Positions 11,283 to 60,104 of a stretch of 64,000 bases of DNA are shown here, in pieces. Numbering within the stretch: position 1 is the stretch's first letter; the number at the start of each line of letters is the position of its first letter. Under the pieces are notes generated by a model. The model had not been told where the DNA came from. It did no database searches and was given only the letters and a program-made list of their open reading frames with translations. The stretch lies in NCBI GenBank assembly GCA_026018925.1, contig JAKSZU010000018.1:4124920-4188919 (forward strand), written 5' to 3'. The position numbers and the translations under genes were made by a program. Source of the DNA: Tupaia tana (taxonomy: Eukaryota; Chordata; Mammalia; Scandentia; Tupaiidae).

Positions 11283-50949
<39,667 letters not shown>

Positions 50950-51249: not shown

Positions 51250-51510
51250 TGGGACCAGCAGTTAGCATAATGGCTATGTCGCTGAACTCCCATGTAGCCT
51301 ACCACGGTTCGAGTCCCAGACCCAGTGGCTTAAATTCATGCCGGACACGTGTGCGTGCGTGCCCCAGATCTAGAGAGGAGAATGGAGGAGAAGGGATTGA
51401 GACGTGGCCATCCCCCCTGGGGGGTGATTTCTCGCTTTTTCTCTGTCTCTCTCTGTCTTTCTGGCAAGCACATGTGCCCTGTAGCAAAAACCTCTCCAAA
51501 AAAAGAAAAT
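51250..51510 (+). mobile_element. Long-form SINE with exact target duplication (intron 1)
   Basis: AAAAGTAAACACACA at 51234-51248 and 51512-51526 flanks the element. Head GGGACCAGCAGTTAGCATAA. Confidence 0.92.
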
Positions 51511-51536
51511 AAAAAGTAAACACACACATAGGAAGT

Positions 51537-51790
51537 GTTGGCCAGTAAGTGGCACAACAGTAATGGCACTGGATGTCCACATGCCTAACTGCGGTTCTAG
51601 TCTTGGACCCGGCGGCTTGAGACTCATGCCGGGCACATGTGCATGTGTGCCCAAGATATCAGGAGGAGAATGGAGAAGGGATTGTGGGGTGGCCGTCCCC
51701 CCAGAGGGTGACGTCTCACTTTCTGTCTCTCTTTTTTGGTAGGGACACATGCCCTAAGGCAAAAAAAAAGAAAAAAAGAAAAAAAAAATG
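51537..51790 (+). mobile_element. Older long-form SINE (intron 1)
   Basis: GTTGGCCAGTAAGTGGCACA head, CCAAGATATCAGGAGGAGAA body and an AAAAAG tail. It lies 200 bp before the telomere-like array. Confidence 0.82.
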
Positions 51791-51985
51791 AGCGTGAACA
51801 TACAGCTTGAATTTTCCCAACCCTCAGAGCCAGCCTCCGAATCAAGAAACAGTCATTATGGCCCGGGAGCCCCTCACACCGGGGGCAGCTGGGTCCTGAT
51901 TCCTACCACCGTGGGTGAGTTCTGCGTGGGGCTGAGCTGCACGCAGATGGCGGCCCGAGTGTCTGTTCTGTCTGCCCTCGCTCCG

Positions 51986-54900
51986 TGCTGTCGGGACGGG
52001 AGCGCCTGTTCTCCTGTGTCTGGGTCAGGGTTAGGGTTAGGTTAGGGTTAGGGTGTCGGGAGGGGAGCGCCTGTTCTCCCGTGTCTGGGTCAGGGTCAGG
52101 GTTAGGGTTAGGTTAGGGTTAGGGTGTCAGGAGGGGAGCGCCTGTTCTCCCGTGTCTGGGTCAGGGTCAGGGTTAGGGTTAGGTTAGGGTTAGGGTGTCA
52201 GGAGGGGAGCGCCTGTTCTCCCGTGTCTGGGTTAGGTTAGGGTTAGGGTGTCAGGAGGGGAGCGCCTGTTCTCCCGTGTCTGGGTTAGGGTGTCGGGAGG
52301 GGAGCGCCTGTTCTCCCGTGTCTGGGTCAGGGTTAGGGTCAGGGTTAGGGTTAGGGTGTCAGGAGGGGAGCGCCTGTTCTCCCGTGTCTAAGTTAGGTTA
52401 GGGTTAGGGTTAGGTTAGGGTTAGGGTGTCGGGAGGGGAGCGCCTGTTCTCCCGTGTCTGGGTCAGGGTTAGGGTTAGGGTTAGGTTAGGGTGTCAGGAG
52501 GGGAGAGCCTGTTCTCCCGTGTCTGGGTTAGGGTTAGGGTTAGGGTGTCAGGAGGGGAGCGCCTGTTCTCCCGTGTCTGGGTCAGGGTTAGGGTTAGGTT
52601 AGGGTTAGGGTGTCAGGAGGGGAGCGCCTGTTCTCCCGTGACTGGGTTAGGGTTAGAGTTAGGGTGTCAGGAGGGGAGAGCCTGTTCTCCCGTGTCTGGG
52701 TTAGGGTTAGGGTTAGGGTGTCAGGAGGGGAGCGCCTGTTCTCCCGTGACTGGGTTAGGGTTAGGGTTAGGTTAGGGTTAGGGTGTCGGGAGGGGAGCGC
52801 CTGTTCTCCCGTGTCTGGGTCAGGGTTAGGGTTAGGGTTAGGTTAGGGTGTCAGGAGGGGAGAGCCTGTTCTCCCGTGTCTGGGTTAGGGTTAGGGTTAG
52901 GGTGTCAGGAGGGGAGCGCCTGTTCTCCCGTGTCTGGGTCAGGGTTAGGGTTAGGTTAGGGTTAGGGTGTCAGGAGGGGAGCGCCTGTTCTCCCGTGACT
53001 GGGTTGGGGTTAGGGTTAGGGTGTCAGGAGGGGAGCGCCTGTTCTCCCGTGACTGGGTTAGGGTTAGAGTTAGGGTGTCAGGAGGGGAGAGCCTGTTCTC
53101 CCGTGTCTGGGTTAGGGTTAGGGTTAGGGTGTCAGGAGGGGAGCGCCTGTTCTCCCGTGTCTGGGTTAGGGTTAGGGTTAGGGTGTCGGGAGTGGAGCGC
53201 CTGTTCTCCCGTGTCTGGGTTAGGGTTAGGGTTAGGGTGTCAGGAGGGGAGCGCCTGTTCTCCCGTGTCTGGGTTAGGGTTAAGGTTAGGGTGTCGGGAG
53301 GGGAGCGCCTGTTCTCCCGTGTCTAAGTTAGGTTAGGGTTAGGGTTAGGTTAGGGTTATGGTGTCAGGAGGGGAGCGCCTGTTCTCCCGTGTCTGGGTTA
53401 GGGTTAGGGTTAGGGTGTCAGGAGGGGAGCACCTGTTCTCCCGTGTCTGGGTTAGGGTTAGGGTGTCAGGAGGGGAGCGCCTGTTCTCCCGTGTCTGGGT
53501 TAGGGTTAGAGTGCCAGGAGGGGAGCGCCTGTTCTCCTGTGTCTGGGTCAGGGTTAGGGTTAGGGTGTCAGGAGGGGAGCGCCTGTTCTCCCGTGTCTGG
53601 GTTAGGGTTAGGGTTAGGGTGTCAGGAGGGGAGCGCCTGTTCTCCCGTGTCTAAGTTAGGTTAGGGTTAGGGTTAGGTTAGGGTTAGGGTGTCGGGAGGG
53701 GAGCGCCTGTTCTCCCGTGTCTGGGTCAGGGTTAGGGTTAGGGTGTCAGGAGGGGAGCGCCTGTTCTCCCGTGACTGGGTTGGGGTTAGGGTTAGGGTGT
53801 CAGGAGGGGAGCGCCTGTTCTCCCGTGTCTGGGTTAGTGTTAGGGTTAGGGTGTCAGGAGGGGAGCGCCTGTTCTCCCGTGTCTGGGTCAGGGTTAGGGT
53901 TAGGGTGTCAGGAGGGGAGCCCCTGTTCTCCCGTGTCTGGGTTAGGGTTAGGGTTAGGGTGTCAGGAGGGGAGCGCCTGTTCTCCCGTGACTGGGTTGGG
54001 GTTAGGGTTAGGGTGTCAGGAGGGGAGCACCTGTTCTCCCGTGTCTGGGTTAGGGTTAGGGTTAGGGTGTCAGGAGGGGAGCGCCTGTTCTCCCGTGACT
54101 GGGTTGGGGTTAGGGTTAGGGTGTCAGGAGGGGAGCGCCTGTTCTCCCGTGTCTGGGTTAGGGTTAGGGTTAGGGTGTCGGGAGGGGAGCGCCTGTTCTC
54201 CCGTGACTGGGTTGGGGTTAGGGTTAGGGTGTCAGGAGGGGAGCACCTGTTCTCCCGTGTCTGGGTTAGGGTTAGGGTTAGGGTGTCAGGAGGGGAGCGC
54301 CTGTTCTCCCGTGACTGGGTTGGGGTTAGGGTTAGGGTGTCAGGAGGGGAGCGCCTGTTCTCCCGTGTCTGGGTTAGGGTTAGGGTTAGGGTGTCAGGAG
54401 GGGAGCACCTGTTCTCCCGTGACTGGGTTGGGGTTAGGGTTAGGGTGTCGGGAGGGGAGCGCCTGTTCTCCCGTGACTGGGTTAGGGTTAGGGTTAGGGT
54501 GTCGGGAGGGGAGCGCCTGTTCTCCCGTGTCTGGGTCAGGGTTAGGGTTAGGTTAGGGTTAGGGTGTCAGGAGGGGAGCGCCTGTTCTTCCGTGACTGGG
54601 TTAGGGTTAGGGTTAGGGTGTCGGGAGGGGAGCGCCTGTTCTCCCGTGACTGGGTTAGGGTTAGGGTTAGGGTGTCGGGAGGGGAGCGCCTGTTCTCCCG
54701 TGTCTGGGTTAGGGTTAGGGTTAGGGTGTCGGGAGGGGAGCGCCTGTTCTCCCGTGTCTGGGTCAGGGTTAGGGTTAGGTTAGGGTTAGGGTGTCAGGAG
54801 GGGAGCACCTGTTCTCCCGTGTCTGGGTCAGGGTTAGGGTTAGGGTGTCGGGAGGGGAGCGCCTGTTCTCCCGTGTCTGGGTTAGGGTTAGGGTTAGGGT

Positions 54901-55970
54901 GTCGGGAGTGGAGCGCCTGTTCTCCCGTGTCTGGGTTAGGGTTAGGGTTAGGGTGTCAGGAGGGGAGCGCCTGTTCTCCCGTGTCTGGGTTAGGGTTAAG
55001 GTTAGGGTGTCGGGAGGGGAGCGCCTGTTCTCCCGTGTCTAAGTTAGGTTAGGGTTAGGGTTAGGTTAGGGTTATGGTGTCAGGAGGGGAGCGCCTGTTC
55101 TCCCGTGTCTGGGTTAGGGTTAGGGTTAGGGTGTCAGGAGGGGAGCACCTGTTCTCCCGTGTCTGGGTTAGGGTTAGAGTGCCAGGAGGGGAGCGCCTGT
55201 TCTCCTGTGTCTGGGTCAGGGTTAGGGTTAGGGTGTCAGGAGGGGAGCGCCTGTTCTCCCGTGTCTGGGTTAGGGTTAGGGTTAGGGTGTCAGGAGGGGA
55301 GCGCCTGTTCTCCCGTGTCTGGGTTAAGGTTAGGGTGTCGGGAGGGGAGCGCCTGTTCTCCCGTGTCTGGGTTAGGGTTAGGGTTAGGGTGTCAGGAGGG
55401 GAGCGCCTGTTCTCCCGTGTCTGGGTTAGTGTTAGGGTTAGGGTGTCAGGAGGGGAGCGCCTGTTCTCCCGTGTCTGGGTTAGGTTAGGGTTAGGGTTAG
55501 GGTGTCAGGAGGGGAGCGCCTGTTCTCCCGTGACTGGGTTGGGGTTAGGGTTAGGGTGTCAGGAGGGGAGCGCCTGTTCTCCCGTGTCTGGGTTAGGGTT
55601 AGGGTTAGGGTGTCAGGAGGGGAGCGCCTGTTCTCCCGTGTCTGGGTTAGGGTTAGGGTTAGGGTGTCAGGAGGGGAGCGCCTGTTCTCCCGTGTCTGGG
55701 TTAGGGTTAGGGTGTCAGGAGGGGAGCGCCTGTTCTCCCGTGTCTGGGTTAAGGTTAGGGTGTCAGGAGGGGAGCGCCTGTTCTCCCGTGTCTGGGTTAG
55801 GGTTAGGGTGTCAGGAGGGGAGTTCCTGTCCTCCCGTGTCTGGGTTAGGGTTAGGGTTAGGGTGTCAGGAGGGGAGCGCCTGTTCTCCTGTGTCTGGGTT
55901 AGGGTTAGGGTGTCAGGAGGTGAGCGTCTGTCCTCCCGTCTGCCCTCGCTCGGCACTGTCAGGAGGGGCC
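51986..55970 (+). repeat. Telomere-containing minisatellite, about 71 units of 54 bp
   Basis: Each unit has a 36-base spacer (starts TGTCAGGAGGGGAGCGCC, ends TTCTCCCGTGTCTGGG) followed by two to four TTAGGG repeats, most often three, giving 54 bp. Variants are a GTCGGG start, CGTGACTGGG, a shortened GGTTAGG step, and rare TTAAGG, TTGGGG, TTATGG and TTAGAG. GGGAG and CTCCC within the spacer can pair around an 8-base loop. The telomere G-rich strand is the + strand, so the ATP2C2 transcript would carry CCCTAA. The array is far from a chromosome end in this window. Flanks on both sides keep a spacer-like copy with CTGCCCTCGCTC in place of the telomere repeats. Confidence 0.97.
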
Positions 55971-56024
55971 TGCACGTGCTGCCTGCCATGCAAGCCCATC
56001 CCCAAGGCTGCGCCGTCTGAGTGC

Positions 56025-56180
56025 ACACACCACAAAATCCCTTCTCGGTTGTCCTCCCGGGATTTGGGGCACGCATGCACACACGTCCTGCATGCTTGTC
56101 AAGATGCTGGTCGAGAACTGACCCGCGGTCAGCCATGTGGGGTCCAGCAGCCTCATCCTCCACGCCACCTGCTGGGCCCT
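56025..56180 (-). mobile_element. Truncated long-form SINE at the right edge of the array
   Basis: CACAAAATCCCTTCTCGGTT, GATTTGGGGCACGCATGCAC and the head CCACGCCACCTGCTGGGCCC. The 3' part is missing. Confidence 0.75.
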
Positions 56181-59069
56181 CTGAGACATTTGGAACAACC
56201 CAAGGAAAGGGTGGAGGAGCCGGGGCAGGCTCTGCAGTCCGTGTGCTCTGTGCTGCGACCCTCCCACGTGGGAAGGAGCCGTCTGGAACACCTGTGGGCT
56301 GCGGGCTCTGGGCAACTGTGAGAACACAGGGTGTCTTAGCATCAGGAAAGAGCTGGCGTCTATGTGAGATTATTCCTGGTATTTTGACACCCAGGACGTG
56401 AGAGATATCTTTTCCTTTTCTGGCAGGTTATGGGAACTGGGAAGGAGGAAGAGAGAGGCGTTGGCCAATTTCTTCCTTTCACAGGAACAGACATTGCAAA
56501 TCCCTCTCTTCCTTCACCACCCCCACCCCTCAACAATTTCCCCGTGCCCCGTCTGCTCAGGCAGCCCATCTGTGTAGACGGCCCCGTCCGCATAGACGGT
56601 TCTGCGACCCACACGCTTCCCAGGGCCAGCTCTCACTGGTGCCCAGTGAGCAGGAAGTGAGCAGCGTCTGCAGGCCGTGCCCGGCTCGCCCACCATTGTG
56701 AGCGCCTCGGGCCAGCGCCCCGTGCTCTGTAGGCTTCCCGTGATGGGAGACGGGCCGGCACAGGACAGAGGCTTTCCTCCCTCTCCGTGCCCAGGACGTG
56801 GTCCTGCTGCAGGGACGCAGTGCTTGGCCCTGGTTCACCTGGGGCTCCAGCACCCGCCCCGGGCTGCCCTTGGTCTCGCCATTCCCTCTGGCCACTACTA
56901 CACCCAGTCTGCTTTCCATACAGCACCTTAGTGACCCTGAAACATGGAACTCCAGTCTGGACCCGCCACTCACCACACATGCACATGCACTCGCACACGC
57001 ACACACAGGCCGTGCCCGAGAAGTGCTCGGGACCCGCTGCTCCCAGACACACCCTCCCTGCAGTGCAGACGCCGCGTTGGCCCTTGTCCTCCTTAACGGT
57101 CCGGGTCTAGCTTGGGGCGGCAGCACGCCTGGCTAAGGTCTTTCCTTGGCCCCCGAGGACCTGGCACTGCCTCCTGGAGGGGTCCCGTGTGCCCAGGAAC
57201 AGGCTTCTGAGAGCTCCCTCCATCCGTCCACGCTAGGCTTGGCTGGGTGTGGACTGCGGGAGGCCAGGCCTCAGTACCCTGGGCTCGAGGGCGGGAGCCA
57301 GTGCCCCGCTGCTCTCCCCACGTGACAGCATGAGGCACACTTCCTCGGCCCCACTCCACCTGAACACGGGGCTCCCAACCAGGGCAGCTGGGCTCAGGCA
57401 GCTTCGGCGACGTCCAGCCATGCGGCCATCACCACCAGGAGGCGGGGCACTGGCGGTGCCTGCCGGGGACTGTGGGGATGCCACAAGCTTTGGAGGGGAC
57501 TCAGGACCACACCCATCCCCCAAAAACACCTGGGAGAAAACGTCAGTAGTCCCGAGGGGGAAACCCCACTTGAAGATAGATGGGCTCTCTGCCCGAGGTC
57601 TCCCCAGACCAGCCTGGTGACCTGCCCGACACCGTAGTGGGCTCGCAAGGTTGCCAGCAAGCGTCCTTACCTAAGTGCCTTCTGCTCACTGCCGCGGCCA
57701 CCGCTGGAAGTCGGGGCCAGGGTCTGGCAGTCGGCGCTAAGGGCTCCTTTTGAAGCACACAGGTCGTTACCTCCATCGGAAGGACGACTGGGCACGCTCT
57801 CAGCACACAAGCCTCAGTTTACCCTCATTGCCACAGCTGTCCAGGAGCCCGTGTGTCACCAGGCAAGCGACTGTCACACAGGGATGGCAGTGTCCACCTC
57901 GTCATGTTTAGGTAGAATTACGTGAGTTCACGCATGGTGGGGGCTTGACCCATGTCAGACCCACCGAGCCCCAGTGGGTGCCAGCCTGAGCTAGACCCCA
58001 TGCTCTGCAGCGGGTGCTGGCTGGCTGTCGAACCCCACTCAGCTCTACACCACACTCGGGGTAGGGGCTGGCCCCACAGTCGAGGGCTCGGCCCCCGTGA
58101 CTGCATGCTTCACACGCCACCCCAGGTCCAGACCTCTGGACCTTCTGGCCCGCAGGTCCCACAGTCTCCCCCCCTCAGGTCGGAATACCCTGCTAGAACA
58201 GCTGAAGCACTCAGGGAAGAGGGCTGTGGCCTGACTGCAGCCCACCGGGAGGGGCGCTTTCTCTCCCACTCTCTCTGGCAAGCACATGCACCCCGATAAT
58301 TACACAGCAACGACAGAAAGTGACTATTACAAAGAACCGCCCTCTCTGGGGGCGCCTCCCTCCAGGGGTTCGCTCCCTGCAAGCCCTCCACCCTCCTTTG
58401 GGGACCTCACTGCATAAGCATGAGGGAACCGCCTGGGCAGGGCCCTGCAAGGCCTGTGCTCAGATCCTCGGCCCTTCTGCGTGGCCTTCCTTCCCCCACA
58501 CCCGGGGGCAGAGGGCAGGGCCCTTCTGGAATGAGGGTTTTCAAGGGGGAGGGATCGGAGTTGCTGTGCAGGCTTTGGTGAGAGGAGGGACTGTCTCTCA
58601 TCTTTAGCCCCGCCCCAAGCTGTCCCCAAGCCCCGCCCATGACTCTGTCTCTATCTGGGGAAACCCTGCTCTCCCGCTGACCAGGTCTGGCACTGGGGTG
58701 AGAACCCGCAGGGCAGGGCTTTACAGAAGAAGCCGTGTCTGTAAATGCACCTCACACATGGGGCACGTTCAGCACATTCCAGAAAGAACCAGCACCCTGA
58801 AGGGATCAGGTGGGCCCGTGAGGGTGTGGCTGCCACTCACAGGCAGCAGAGGGCGTCTCTGTGACCTTGTCATGGGGCTGCCACTCCGGAGCCTCTCTGA
58901 GGGGACGAGGTCTTTGCAGTGTCTAGAACACGCGTGAGGGTCTGCATCTTTGAGTGTTTTTAATGAGCACTGAAAGCACAGGTCAGAAAGTTATGAATCT
59001 GTTTTTAAAAAGCTTCCTTGGTTTGCATTCAATACTGGCCTCAAGTGATTTCTCTACATTTAAAAAAGG

Positions 59070-59215: not shown

Positions 59216-59671
59216 TAGAGGCCAGGCCGTGTCAGCACTCAAGCGTCTGTGGACCCCCGGCCCGAGTCGACCTCCCACGGCTACTGAGGGATGTCCATAT
59301 CGCCCGAATGTCTGACGCCCTGCCATTATCAACTGTGAGTTAATATTTGAAGATATGAGGTGGTAACTGTGATTCTATTCCTTAAGAGTTTCTGTCTTCA
59401 GTGACATATTTATATGGAAATATTGTAGATGAAAGGCTGAGATTTGTGTCAAAACAACCCAGGGTAGAGCTGAACCGGATCGGCTGGCTGGCTCACTGAC
59501 AGAGTGAGGGGGTTCCCACGTGCAAAATGGAAAGAGCACAACCACGGGGACAGCACGGGTAGGCATCAGGAAAGGAATCCGCAGAGCGACCTCTACAATG
59601 TTATCCTAGTTTTAGGGGAAAAGCACTCACATAAAAGAATCTGGAAAGTTTCTTGGCATGTGAGTTTCCAT

Positions 59672-59752
59672 GGCTACCTAGGGCAGTTTCCATGGCTACC
59701 TAGGGCAGTTTCCATGGCTACCTAGGGCAGTTTCCATGGCTACCTAGGGCGA
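59672..59752 (+). repeat. 22-bp tandem repeat, about 4 copies
   Basis: CAGTTTCCATGGCTACCTAG plus GG repeated four times with almost no change. Confidence 0.95.
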
Positions 59753-60104
59753 TTTCCTGTGCCTTAACAAGTGCCACCGTCTGGTGTTGGGGACAATGGA
59801 AGCGTGATTTCTCCCAGGTCTGGAAGCTGGAGCTCTGAGGTCACGGGGATTCCCTCTGAGACCGCCGGGGTGGCCCGTCCTGGCCTCTCGTGTCCGGTGG
59901 TTGCCAAGAACCCCGGCCTTCCTTGGCTCGCGGACACAGCAGCCAGCCCCGCCTTTGGCACTGCGGCCCTTCCTCCCTGAGTGTCTCTGCTCGGCCTTTC
60001 TGTGAAGGTCCCACCGTTGCGTCGGGGCCCATGCTGACCCGGCACACCCACATCTTAGCTTGCGTAGCCTCCAAAGACCCCATTTCCAAATAAGATCACT
60101 TCCA

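Follow-up and report, generated by a model that had tools for sequence, protein, structure and literature searches.

Short interstitial telomeric sequences (s-ITSs) formed at double-strand breaks are presented, in the available text of two surveys, mostly as single tracts, that is, internal runs of TTAGGG in one orientation, with short target loss and a telomere-free site that can be named (PMC2246262, PMC7215372). Interstitial telomeric sequences (ITSs) of the subtelomeric or fusion type extend to kilobase scale and carry variant repeats. Minisatellites, among them the GC-rich variable number tandem repeats (VNTRs), consist of tandem units of about 10–100 bp spread over 0.5–30 kb. The locus described here shares something with each of these. 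It lies in a 64,000-nucleotide stretch of the Tupaia tana genome (contig JAKSZU010000018.1, positions 4,124,920 to 4,188,919 of the forward strand; hereafter the window, whose numbering is used for all array and gene positions) and is an array at 51,986–55,970, within the first intron of a gene that we take to be ATP2C2, in which a telomeric block forms part of the tandemly repeated unit. Like the s-ITSs at breaks, it has an internal TTAGGG tract in one orientation, a short target loss and a nameable telomere-free site, but its tract sits inside a larger unit repeated about 70 times. Like the GC-rich minisatellites, it has units of 42–71 bp, a length of 4 kb, strand asymmetry, block duplications and diverged edges, and by size alone it is a minisatellite (42–71 bp units over 3.98 kb), but about two fifths of it (1,564 of 3,985 bases) is telomeric-type repeat, varying mostly by hexamers. 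It has the kilobase scale and variant repeats of subtelomeric or fusion-type ITSs, but no long continuous tract or inversion, and its spacer is regular, locus-specific and intronic. This telomere-bearing intronic array is real, and what is new in it is that a telomere-free version of the unit is kept at both array edges, pointing to its origin. Among the titles and abstract openings listed by searches of the open-access literature, none described an intragenic minisatellite with a telomeric block in every unit.

Units were read on the + strand, on which decomposition of 51,986–55,970 gives 71 spacer cores, spanning 51,993 to 55,936, and 70 telomeric blocks, all TTAGGG-oriented; this confirms the extent and the 71 units given in a preliminary description made from the letters of the window. 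That description had proposed a tandem-repeat search, and Tandem Repeats Finder indeed recovers the array, its main row covering 52,472–55,911 with a period of 54, 62.3 copies and a score of 4620. Successive cores lie 54 bases apart in 44 of 70 cases, 65 and 48 bases apart in eight cases each, 70 in four and 71 in two, while distances of 66, 59, 53 and 42 occur once each. Small variants aside, a typical unit reads TGTC[A/G]GGAGGGGAGCGCCTGTTCTCC[C/T]GTG[T/A]CT followed by the telomeric block. The spacer had been put at 36 bases, which holds only if the adjoining GGG is included, since the non-telomeric spacer proper comes to 33 bases when counted on the unit. Similarly, the two to four TTAGGG repeats first ascribed to each unit understate its range, as the 33-base spacer of each of the 70 units is joined by between one and six TTAGGG-type hexamers in blocks of 9–38 bases, with uninterrupted perfect runs of three at most; the commonest block is exactly GGG(TTAGGG)3, in 25 of 70. 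The proposal that the telomere motif belongs to the minisatellite unit itself stands without exception. The parse [C/T]GTG[T/A]CT, telomeric block, TG[T/C]C fits all 70 blocks, and because they share this one junction parse, the insert must occupy a single fixed place in the unit. The + strand of the array holds 179 TTAGGG, 18 TCAGGG and 8 TTGGGG hexamers and 0 CCCTAA, whereas a first-order window model predicts a mean of 1.0 TTAGGG for DNA of this length (no more than 5 in any of 200 draws) and a model built on the array's own dinucleotides predicts 13.4 (no more than 23 in any of 200). GC skew across its four 1-kb stretches is 0.39–0.47.

The two edges bear most directly on how such a unit arose. 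At the left edge (51,957–52,014, + strand), the first core is directly preceded by a copy of the unit that lacks telomeric repeats, GTCTGCCCTCGCTC.G..CTGTC at 51,970–51,992, and at the right edge (55,915–55,968, + strand) the last core is followed by one base and then by a second telomere-free version at 55,938–55,960. These two 23-mers agree at 20 of 23 positions, and the left and right edges align over 47 columns with a flank-only score of 31, a value that 0 of 500 shuffles reached (maximum 28). Since the edge copies match the array unit both before and after the telomeric block, the block replaces about 14 bases, CCCTCGCTC.G..C.

We consider it likely that the array is a GC-rich minisatellite, restricted to one locus, that arose from an interstitial telomeric insertion. 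As the observed edge copies suggest, a prior tandem repeat of roughly 43–48 bp would have been present in two to three copies. One inner copy would then have lost about 14 bases and gained GG(TTAGGG)n, a step suggested by the junctions and by a parallel within the same genome; this probably took place during double-strand break repair with telomeric repeat addition, one G on the side of the break staying in register with the insert. Unequal exchange, slippage or conversion would subsequently have expanded the insert-bearing unit to about 70 copies. The unit map points to this expansion, whose outcome would be the block duplications, alternating dimers, mostly whole-hexamer changes in block length and more diverged edge units. 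What resulted would most likely be passive intronic DNA, able to bind some TRF1/TRF2 and to change in length. A selected function is not needed to explain the array, and none is demonstrated.

That all telomeric repeats of the array run in one direction was counted in favor of an insertion. Target-site deletion is the commonest class among telomeric insertions in Table 1 of PMC2246262 (65 of 130 rodent and 13 of 25 primate loci), and the available text of PMC7215372 gives it for 20 of 66 horse loci. Within the T. tana genome, (TTAGGG)6 at L045 (C220:52.88 Mb) lies inside a short interspersed element (SINE) and replaces about 13 bases, 20 approximate copies (window plus flanks) holding 10–21 non-telomeric bases. 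L045 is an insertion of the break-repair type, with the SINE family as its empty site, and offers a same-genome parallel to the array.

Several points weigh against an origin of the array by insertion at this locus. The empty site is paralogous, being provided by the array's own edges, and not orthologous, and the register at the break amounts to one base, which is often expected by chance. The blocks contain TCAGGG and TTGGGG variants; repeats newly made by telomerase should be free of these, barring mutation ahead of amplification. Of the 72 matches to a 221-base query, 70 fall in the array and two elsewhere, on C531, within a degenerate telomeric tract (L039), and on C386 (L040), both limited to telomeric letters plus junctions. 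L040 is a 5.7-copy ITS that shares the TCTGGG...GGGTGTC junctions, and its downstream flank is spacer-like, at a score equaled by 133 of 40,000 random 100-mers and by 93 of 24,214 GC-matched ones; these are odds before allowing for two flanks tried, of which the upstream one scored lower, at a locus picked from two. The unit could thus conceivably be of paralogous origin.

The insert itself may have come from telomerase synthesis or from a captured telomere-like fragment, and the TCAGGG and TTGGGG variants in the array blocks leave room for capture. On the capture reading, degenerate telomere-like DNA of the genome would have supplied the telomeric block through template switching or gene conversion, and telomerase would not have made it. 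Potential donors are present, both as degenerate telomere-like tracts and as a 168-bp telomere-like satellite (L018, L026, L039), TCTGGGTCAGGG-like strings recur in L039, and a 45-base stretch at C531 has 96% identity to the block plus junctions. However, the C531 match belongs to a degenerate telomeric tract, in which some partial similarity is to be expected, all 12 exact matches of the 23-mer TCTGGGTCAGGGTTAGGGTTAGG are within the array, and more than a third of the blocks, as counted above, are perfect GGG(TTAGGG)3, so that we view capture as unlikely. The 168-bp satellite was also considered as a source and rejected, because its similarity covers the telomeric block plus a few preceding letters and not the rest of the spacer.

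A genome-wide search with the spacer, advised in the preliminary description, finds it confined to this locus: a spacer 29-mer allowed up to 3 mismatches in the 2.95-Gb assembly gives 70 of 70 matches inside the array and none elsewhere, and all 51 exact matches of a 25-mer likewise fall inside it, which rules out a dispersed repeat family. The GGGAG/CTCCC stem with an 8-base loop proposed for the spacer does exist (−3.6 kcal/mol), but its stability is no better than chance, as 72 of 200 shuffled versions are equally or more stable (z = −0.25), and the hairpin was rejected as a functional part on this test. Rfam and tRNA scans of the window were empty.

The map of units records how the array grew. 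There are 38 distinct unit types among the 70, with one four-unit string and several three-unit strings repeated. A 327-bp segment at 53,135–53,461 (+ strand; unit string OPQN) recurs without mismatch 1,716 bp downstream at 54,851–55,177, and a higher-order stretch at 53,910–54,449 (+ strand) consists, by the unit list, of ten 54-bp units forming five 108-bp dimers in which TGACTGGGTTGGGG units alternate with others, mostly TGTCTGGGTTAGGG. Mean pairwise divergence of the cores is 4.3%; the first core differs from the consensus at 2 positions and the third from last and the last at 3 each (for the last core, 3 differences in 22 bases), while most inner cores differ at 0 or 1. Repeated strings, the 327-bp duplication and diverged edges are what unequal exchange and block duplication ordinarily leave behind. 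This variety also bears on whether the array might be an assembly artefact, through false expansion or a false join. Repeats this long can be mis-sized, and the copy number is that of the assembly, but 38 of 70 units are distinct, the edges on both sides are locus-specific, 51,500–56,600 contains no N letters, and an ATP2C2 exon lies on either side (exon 2 below, exon 1 above), all of which makes an artefact exceedingly improbable.

ATP2C2 carries other minisatellites: a 23-bp unit in about 18 copies at 50,116–50,533 (+ strand), a 41-bp unit in about 9 copies at 42,746–43,114 (+ strand) and, by Tandem Repeats Finder, further arrays at 20,099–20,692, 30,421–30,650 and 59,663–59,757. With several minisatellites in one gene, the region appears generally prone to tandem amplification, a property that is not special to telomeric DNA.

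The host gene was placed with peptides of human SPCA1 and ATP2C2 as tblastn queries. These reveal a P-type ATPase gene on the minus strand, whose successive exons descend from about 48.0 kb to 11.3 kb, apart from a few weak stray peptide matches, and we presume it to be ATP2C2 since its N-terminal exons match the human ATP2C2 sequence. Exon 1 (minus strand) matches the human peptides at about 71,320–71,421, outside the window (in L011). Exon 2 (50,839–50,949, minus strand) is 111 bp long with a CAG acceptor and a GTAAGC donor, intron 1 lying above 50,949, and exon 3 (47,900–48,022, minus strand) is given by the extent of its match to the human peptides and is not splice-exact. With exon 1 above it and exon 2 1,036 bp below it, the array falls in intron 1, as first proposed, though on the evidence of peptide matches. 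Its start is about 4.18 Mb from the first base of the 70.86-Mb contig, so that its position between exons 1 and 2 is internal to the chromosome, as in s-ITSs. With regard to run length, its longest exact run is 3 units, and the array can be placed among s-ITSs only by lenient counting, which admits longer variant-bearing blocks or adds the preceding TCTGGG to GGG(TTAGGG)3.

The same coordinates are relevant to whether the array is the remnant of a chromosome fusion or a degenerate subtelomeric block. The position of the array, 4.18 Mb in from an end of the 70.86-Mb contig, could be cited in favor of this, but the telomeric DNA is split at regular intervals by a locus-specific spacer inside a gene with ordered exons, and there is no head-to-head orientation of the kind fusion-type ITSs display (179 TTAGGG against 0 CCCTAA). 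A fusion remnant is contradicted by repeat orientation and gene continuity and was rejected, and we find the broader explanation hardly credible.

If the array has effects on its host gene, they would have to arise from its G-rich strand or from proteins that bind it. Four successive G3 runs, said to recur along the array, do so with short loops in 38 of the 44 54-base units (counted from the block list), and the predicted G-quadruplex (G4) motifs on the + strand are borne out, with 48 non-overlapping motifs in the array and 0 on the minus strand, compared with 16 and 24 on the two strands of the window outside the array. G4Hunter gives the array a mean of 0.83, while 1-kb stretches elsewhere in the window range from −0.59 to 0.34. 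ATP2C2 is transcribed from the minus strand, however; its template is therefore the G-rich strand, which puts the C-rich repeat (CCCUAA) in the pre-mRNA. The usual arrangement of R-loop and G4 requires a G-rich non-template strand and is therefore not favored here.

The array contains 112 TTAGGGTT sites on the + strand and 0 on the minus strand, a number that makes binding of TRF1/TRF2 plausible as far as the letters go. In the available text of PMC6410037, TRF1/TRF2 occupy a subset of ITSs with a preference for genic regions and a dependence on ITS length and conservation, an 800-bp telomeric tract in an APRT intron leads to rearrangements, and the fragile ITS at 2q14 requires TRF1. Such effects may be weak here, since perfect runs do not exceed three hexamers. 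It could nevertheless be supposed that the array is a selected regulatory element on which TRF1/TRF2 silence or loop ATP2C2. The 112 sites on one strand and the genic preference of TRF binding at human ITSs (PMC6410037, available text) would accord with this. The short perfect runs, set beside the dependence on length and conservation reported in the same text, the spacer hairpin that is not above chance and the neighboring minisatellites, which point to ordinary amplification, all speak against it, and we think such a role very unlikely. A more specific form of the idea would make the array an internal shelterin platform in ATP2C2, in which regularly spaced TRF half-sites, 112 in about 70 units, attract TRF1/TRF2, the CCCUAA pre-mRNA acts as an intragenic analogue of telomeric C-rich RNA, and the output of ATP2C2 or the stability of replication forks is tuned by array length; this would be a long shot.

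How exceptional the array is within its own genome can be gauged from 24 other telomere-bearing places, of which 22 were hand-chosen, and thus not random, from the first 100 (TTAGGG)4 places listed and two came from the 221-base query; (TTAGGG)4 itself has 1,385 forward and 430 reverse matches in the genome, overlapping ones counted. By reading, single short tracts make up 12 of the 24 (L023, L025, L040, L043, L045, L048–L053 and L056), and long tracts of degenerate or satellite-like character another eight (L026, L028, L039, L041, L042, L044, L054 and L055); L046 and L047 are small composites with about two copies each, L024 is a block rich in variants and L027 an inverted block. A telomere motif within a longer unit is not unique in the genome, as L028 and the 168-bp satellite demonstrate. 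Both L028 and the satellite at L018/L026 resemble the array in holding TTAGGG hexamers within a longer repeated unit, but the rest of their unit also looks telomere-derived, and their copies are more diverged or their unit is longer. In addition, the 168-bp family is found on more than one contig, whereas the array has a GC-rich, locus-specific spacer and is intronic. What sets the array apart in this 24-place sample is that spacer, a similarity among copies greater than that of L028, and its intronic place.

Some of these places are of interest on their own account. L028 (C199:565,400–567,400) has a 31-bp unit, also read as 62 bp, in about 65 copies that are 70% alike, TTAGGG alternating with GATAGTG-type letters. 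About 59 copies of the 168-bp satellite occupy the initial 10 kb of C297 (L018), and it occurs again in L026 (C221); L018 and L020 together cover C297:1–20,000, L020 contains 138 TTAGGG and 0 CCCTAA, and at the start of C297 the TTAGGG orientation of the satellite is opposite to that of a left-end telomere. At L027 (C231:54.13 Mb) two degenerate blocks stand in succession, CCCTAA first and TTAGGG second, an inverted arrangement whose order is opposite to that of an end-to-end telomere fusion. L046 (C220:70.81 Mb) has a 126-bp unit in 1.8 copies and L047 (C231:0.385 Mb) a 49-bp unit in 1.9 copies; like the array, they duplicate in tandem a telomeric block together with non-telomeric letters, but they have about two copies only and different spacers. 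It is possible that L046 and L047 are early stages of the same kind of array.

A separate group of tracts may have reached their positions by another path. A flanking-duplication test was run on 13 places (it is not applicable to L045, where distant TTAGGG upset the boundary), and in three of them, L025 (C242:80.96 Mb), L043 (C220:7.80 Mb) and L052 (C242:93.88 Mb), (TTAGGG)n is followed by an A-rich stretch and then by a copy of the upstream flank. The duplicated flanks are identical at 18 of 18, 14 of 14 and 16 of 17 bases, respectively, with 0 of 500 shuffles as good in each case. L023, which also has an A-rich stretch, is weaker (18 of 500 shuffles), and its level is not telling, as L051 and L056 reach it without an A-rich stretch (18 and 12 of 500). 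Controls for tails on the wrong side across the whole genome gave 2 matches for T8 downstream and 1 for A8 upstream. The corresponding pattern on the correct side, A8 downstream, would by reading match just L052 of the three and is thus insensitive to such loci. To judge from their sequence, L025, L043 and L052 look like LINE-1-mediated retrocopies of polyadenylated telomeric RNA. The available text of PMC7215372 offers a related suggestion, namely that some ITSs may derive from telomeric repeat-containing RNA (TERRA) by a repair route.

The array ties telomeric insertion in break repair to the birth of a minisatellite, two processes that are usually treated apart, and because its edges keep the telomere-free unit, a single genome is enough to propose how events followed one another. 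If the array does act as a shelterin platform, telomeric insertion would be a route to new VNTRs with built-in protein binding. And if it is bound by TRF proteins at all, it would provide a natural test of interrupted telomeric DNA inside a gene, with the G-rich strand as the template.

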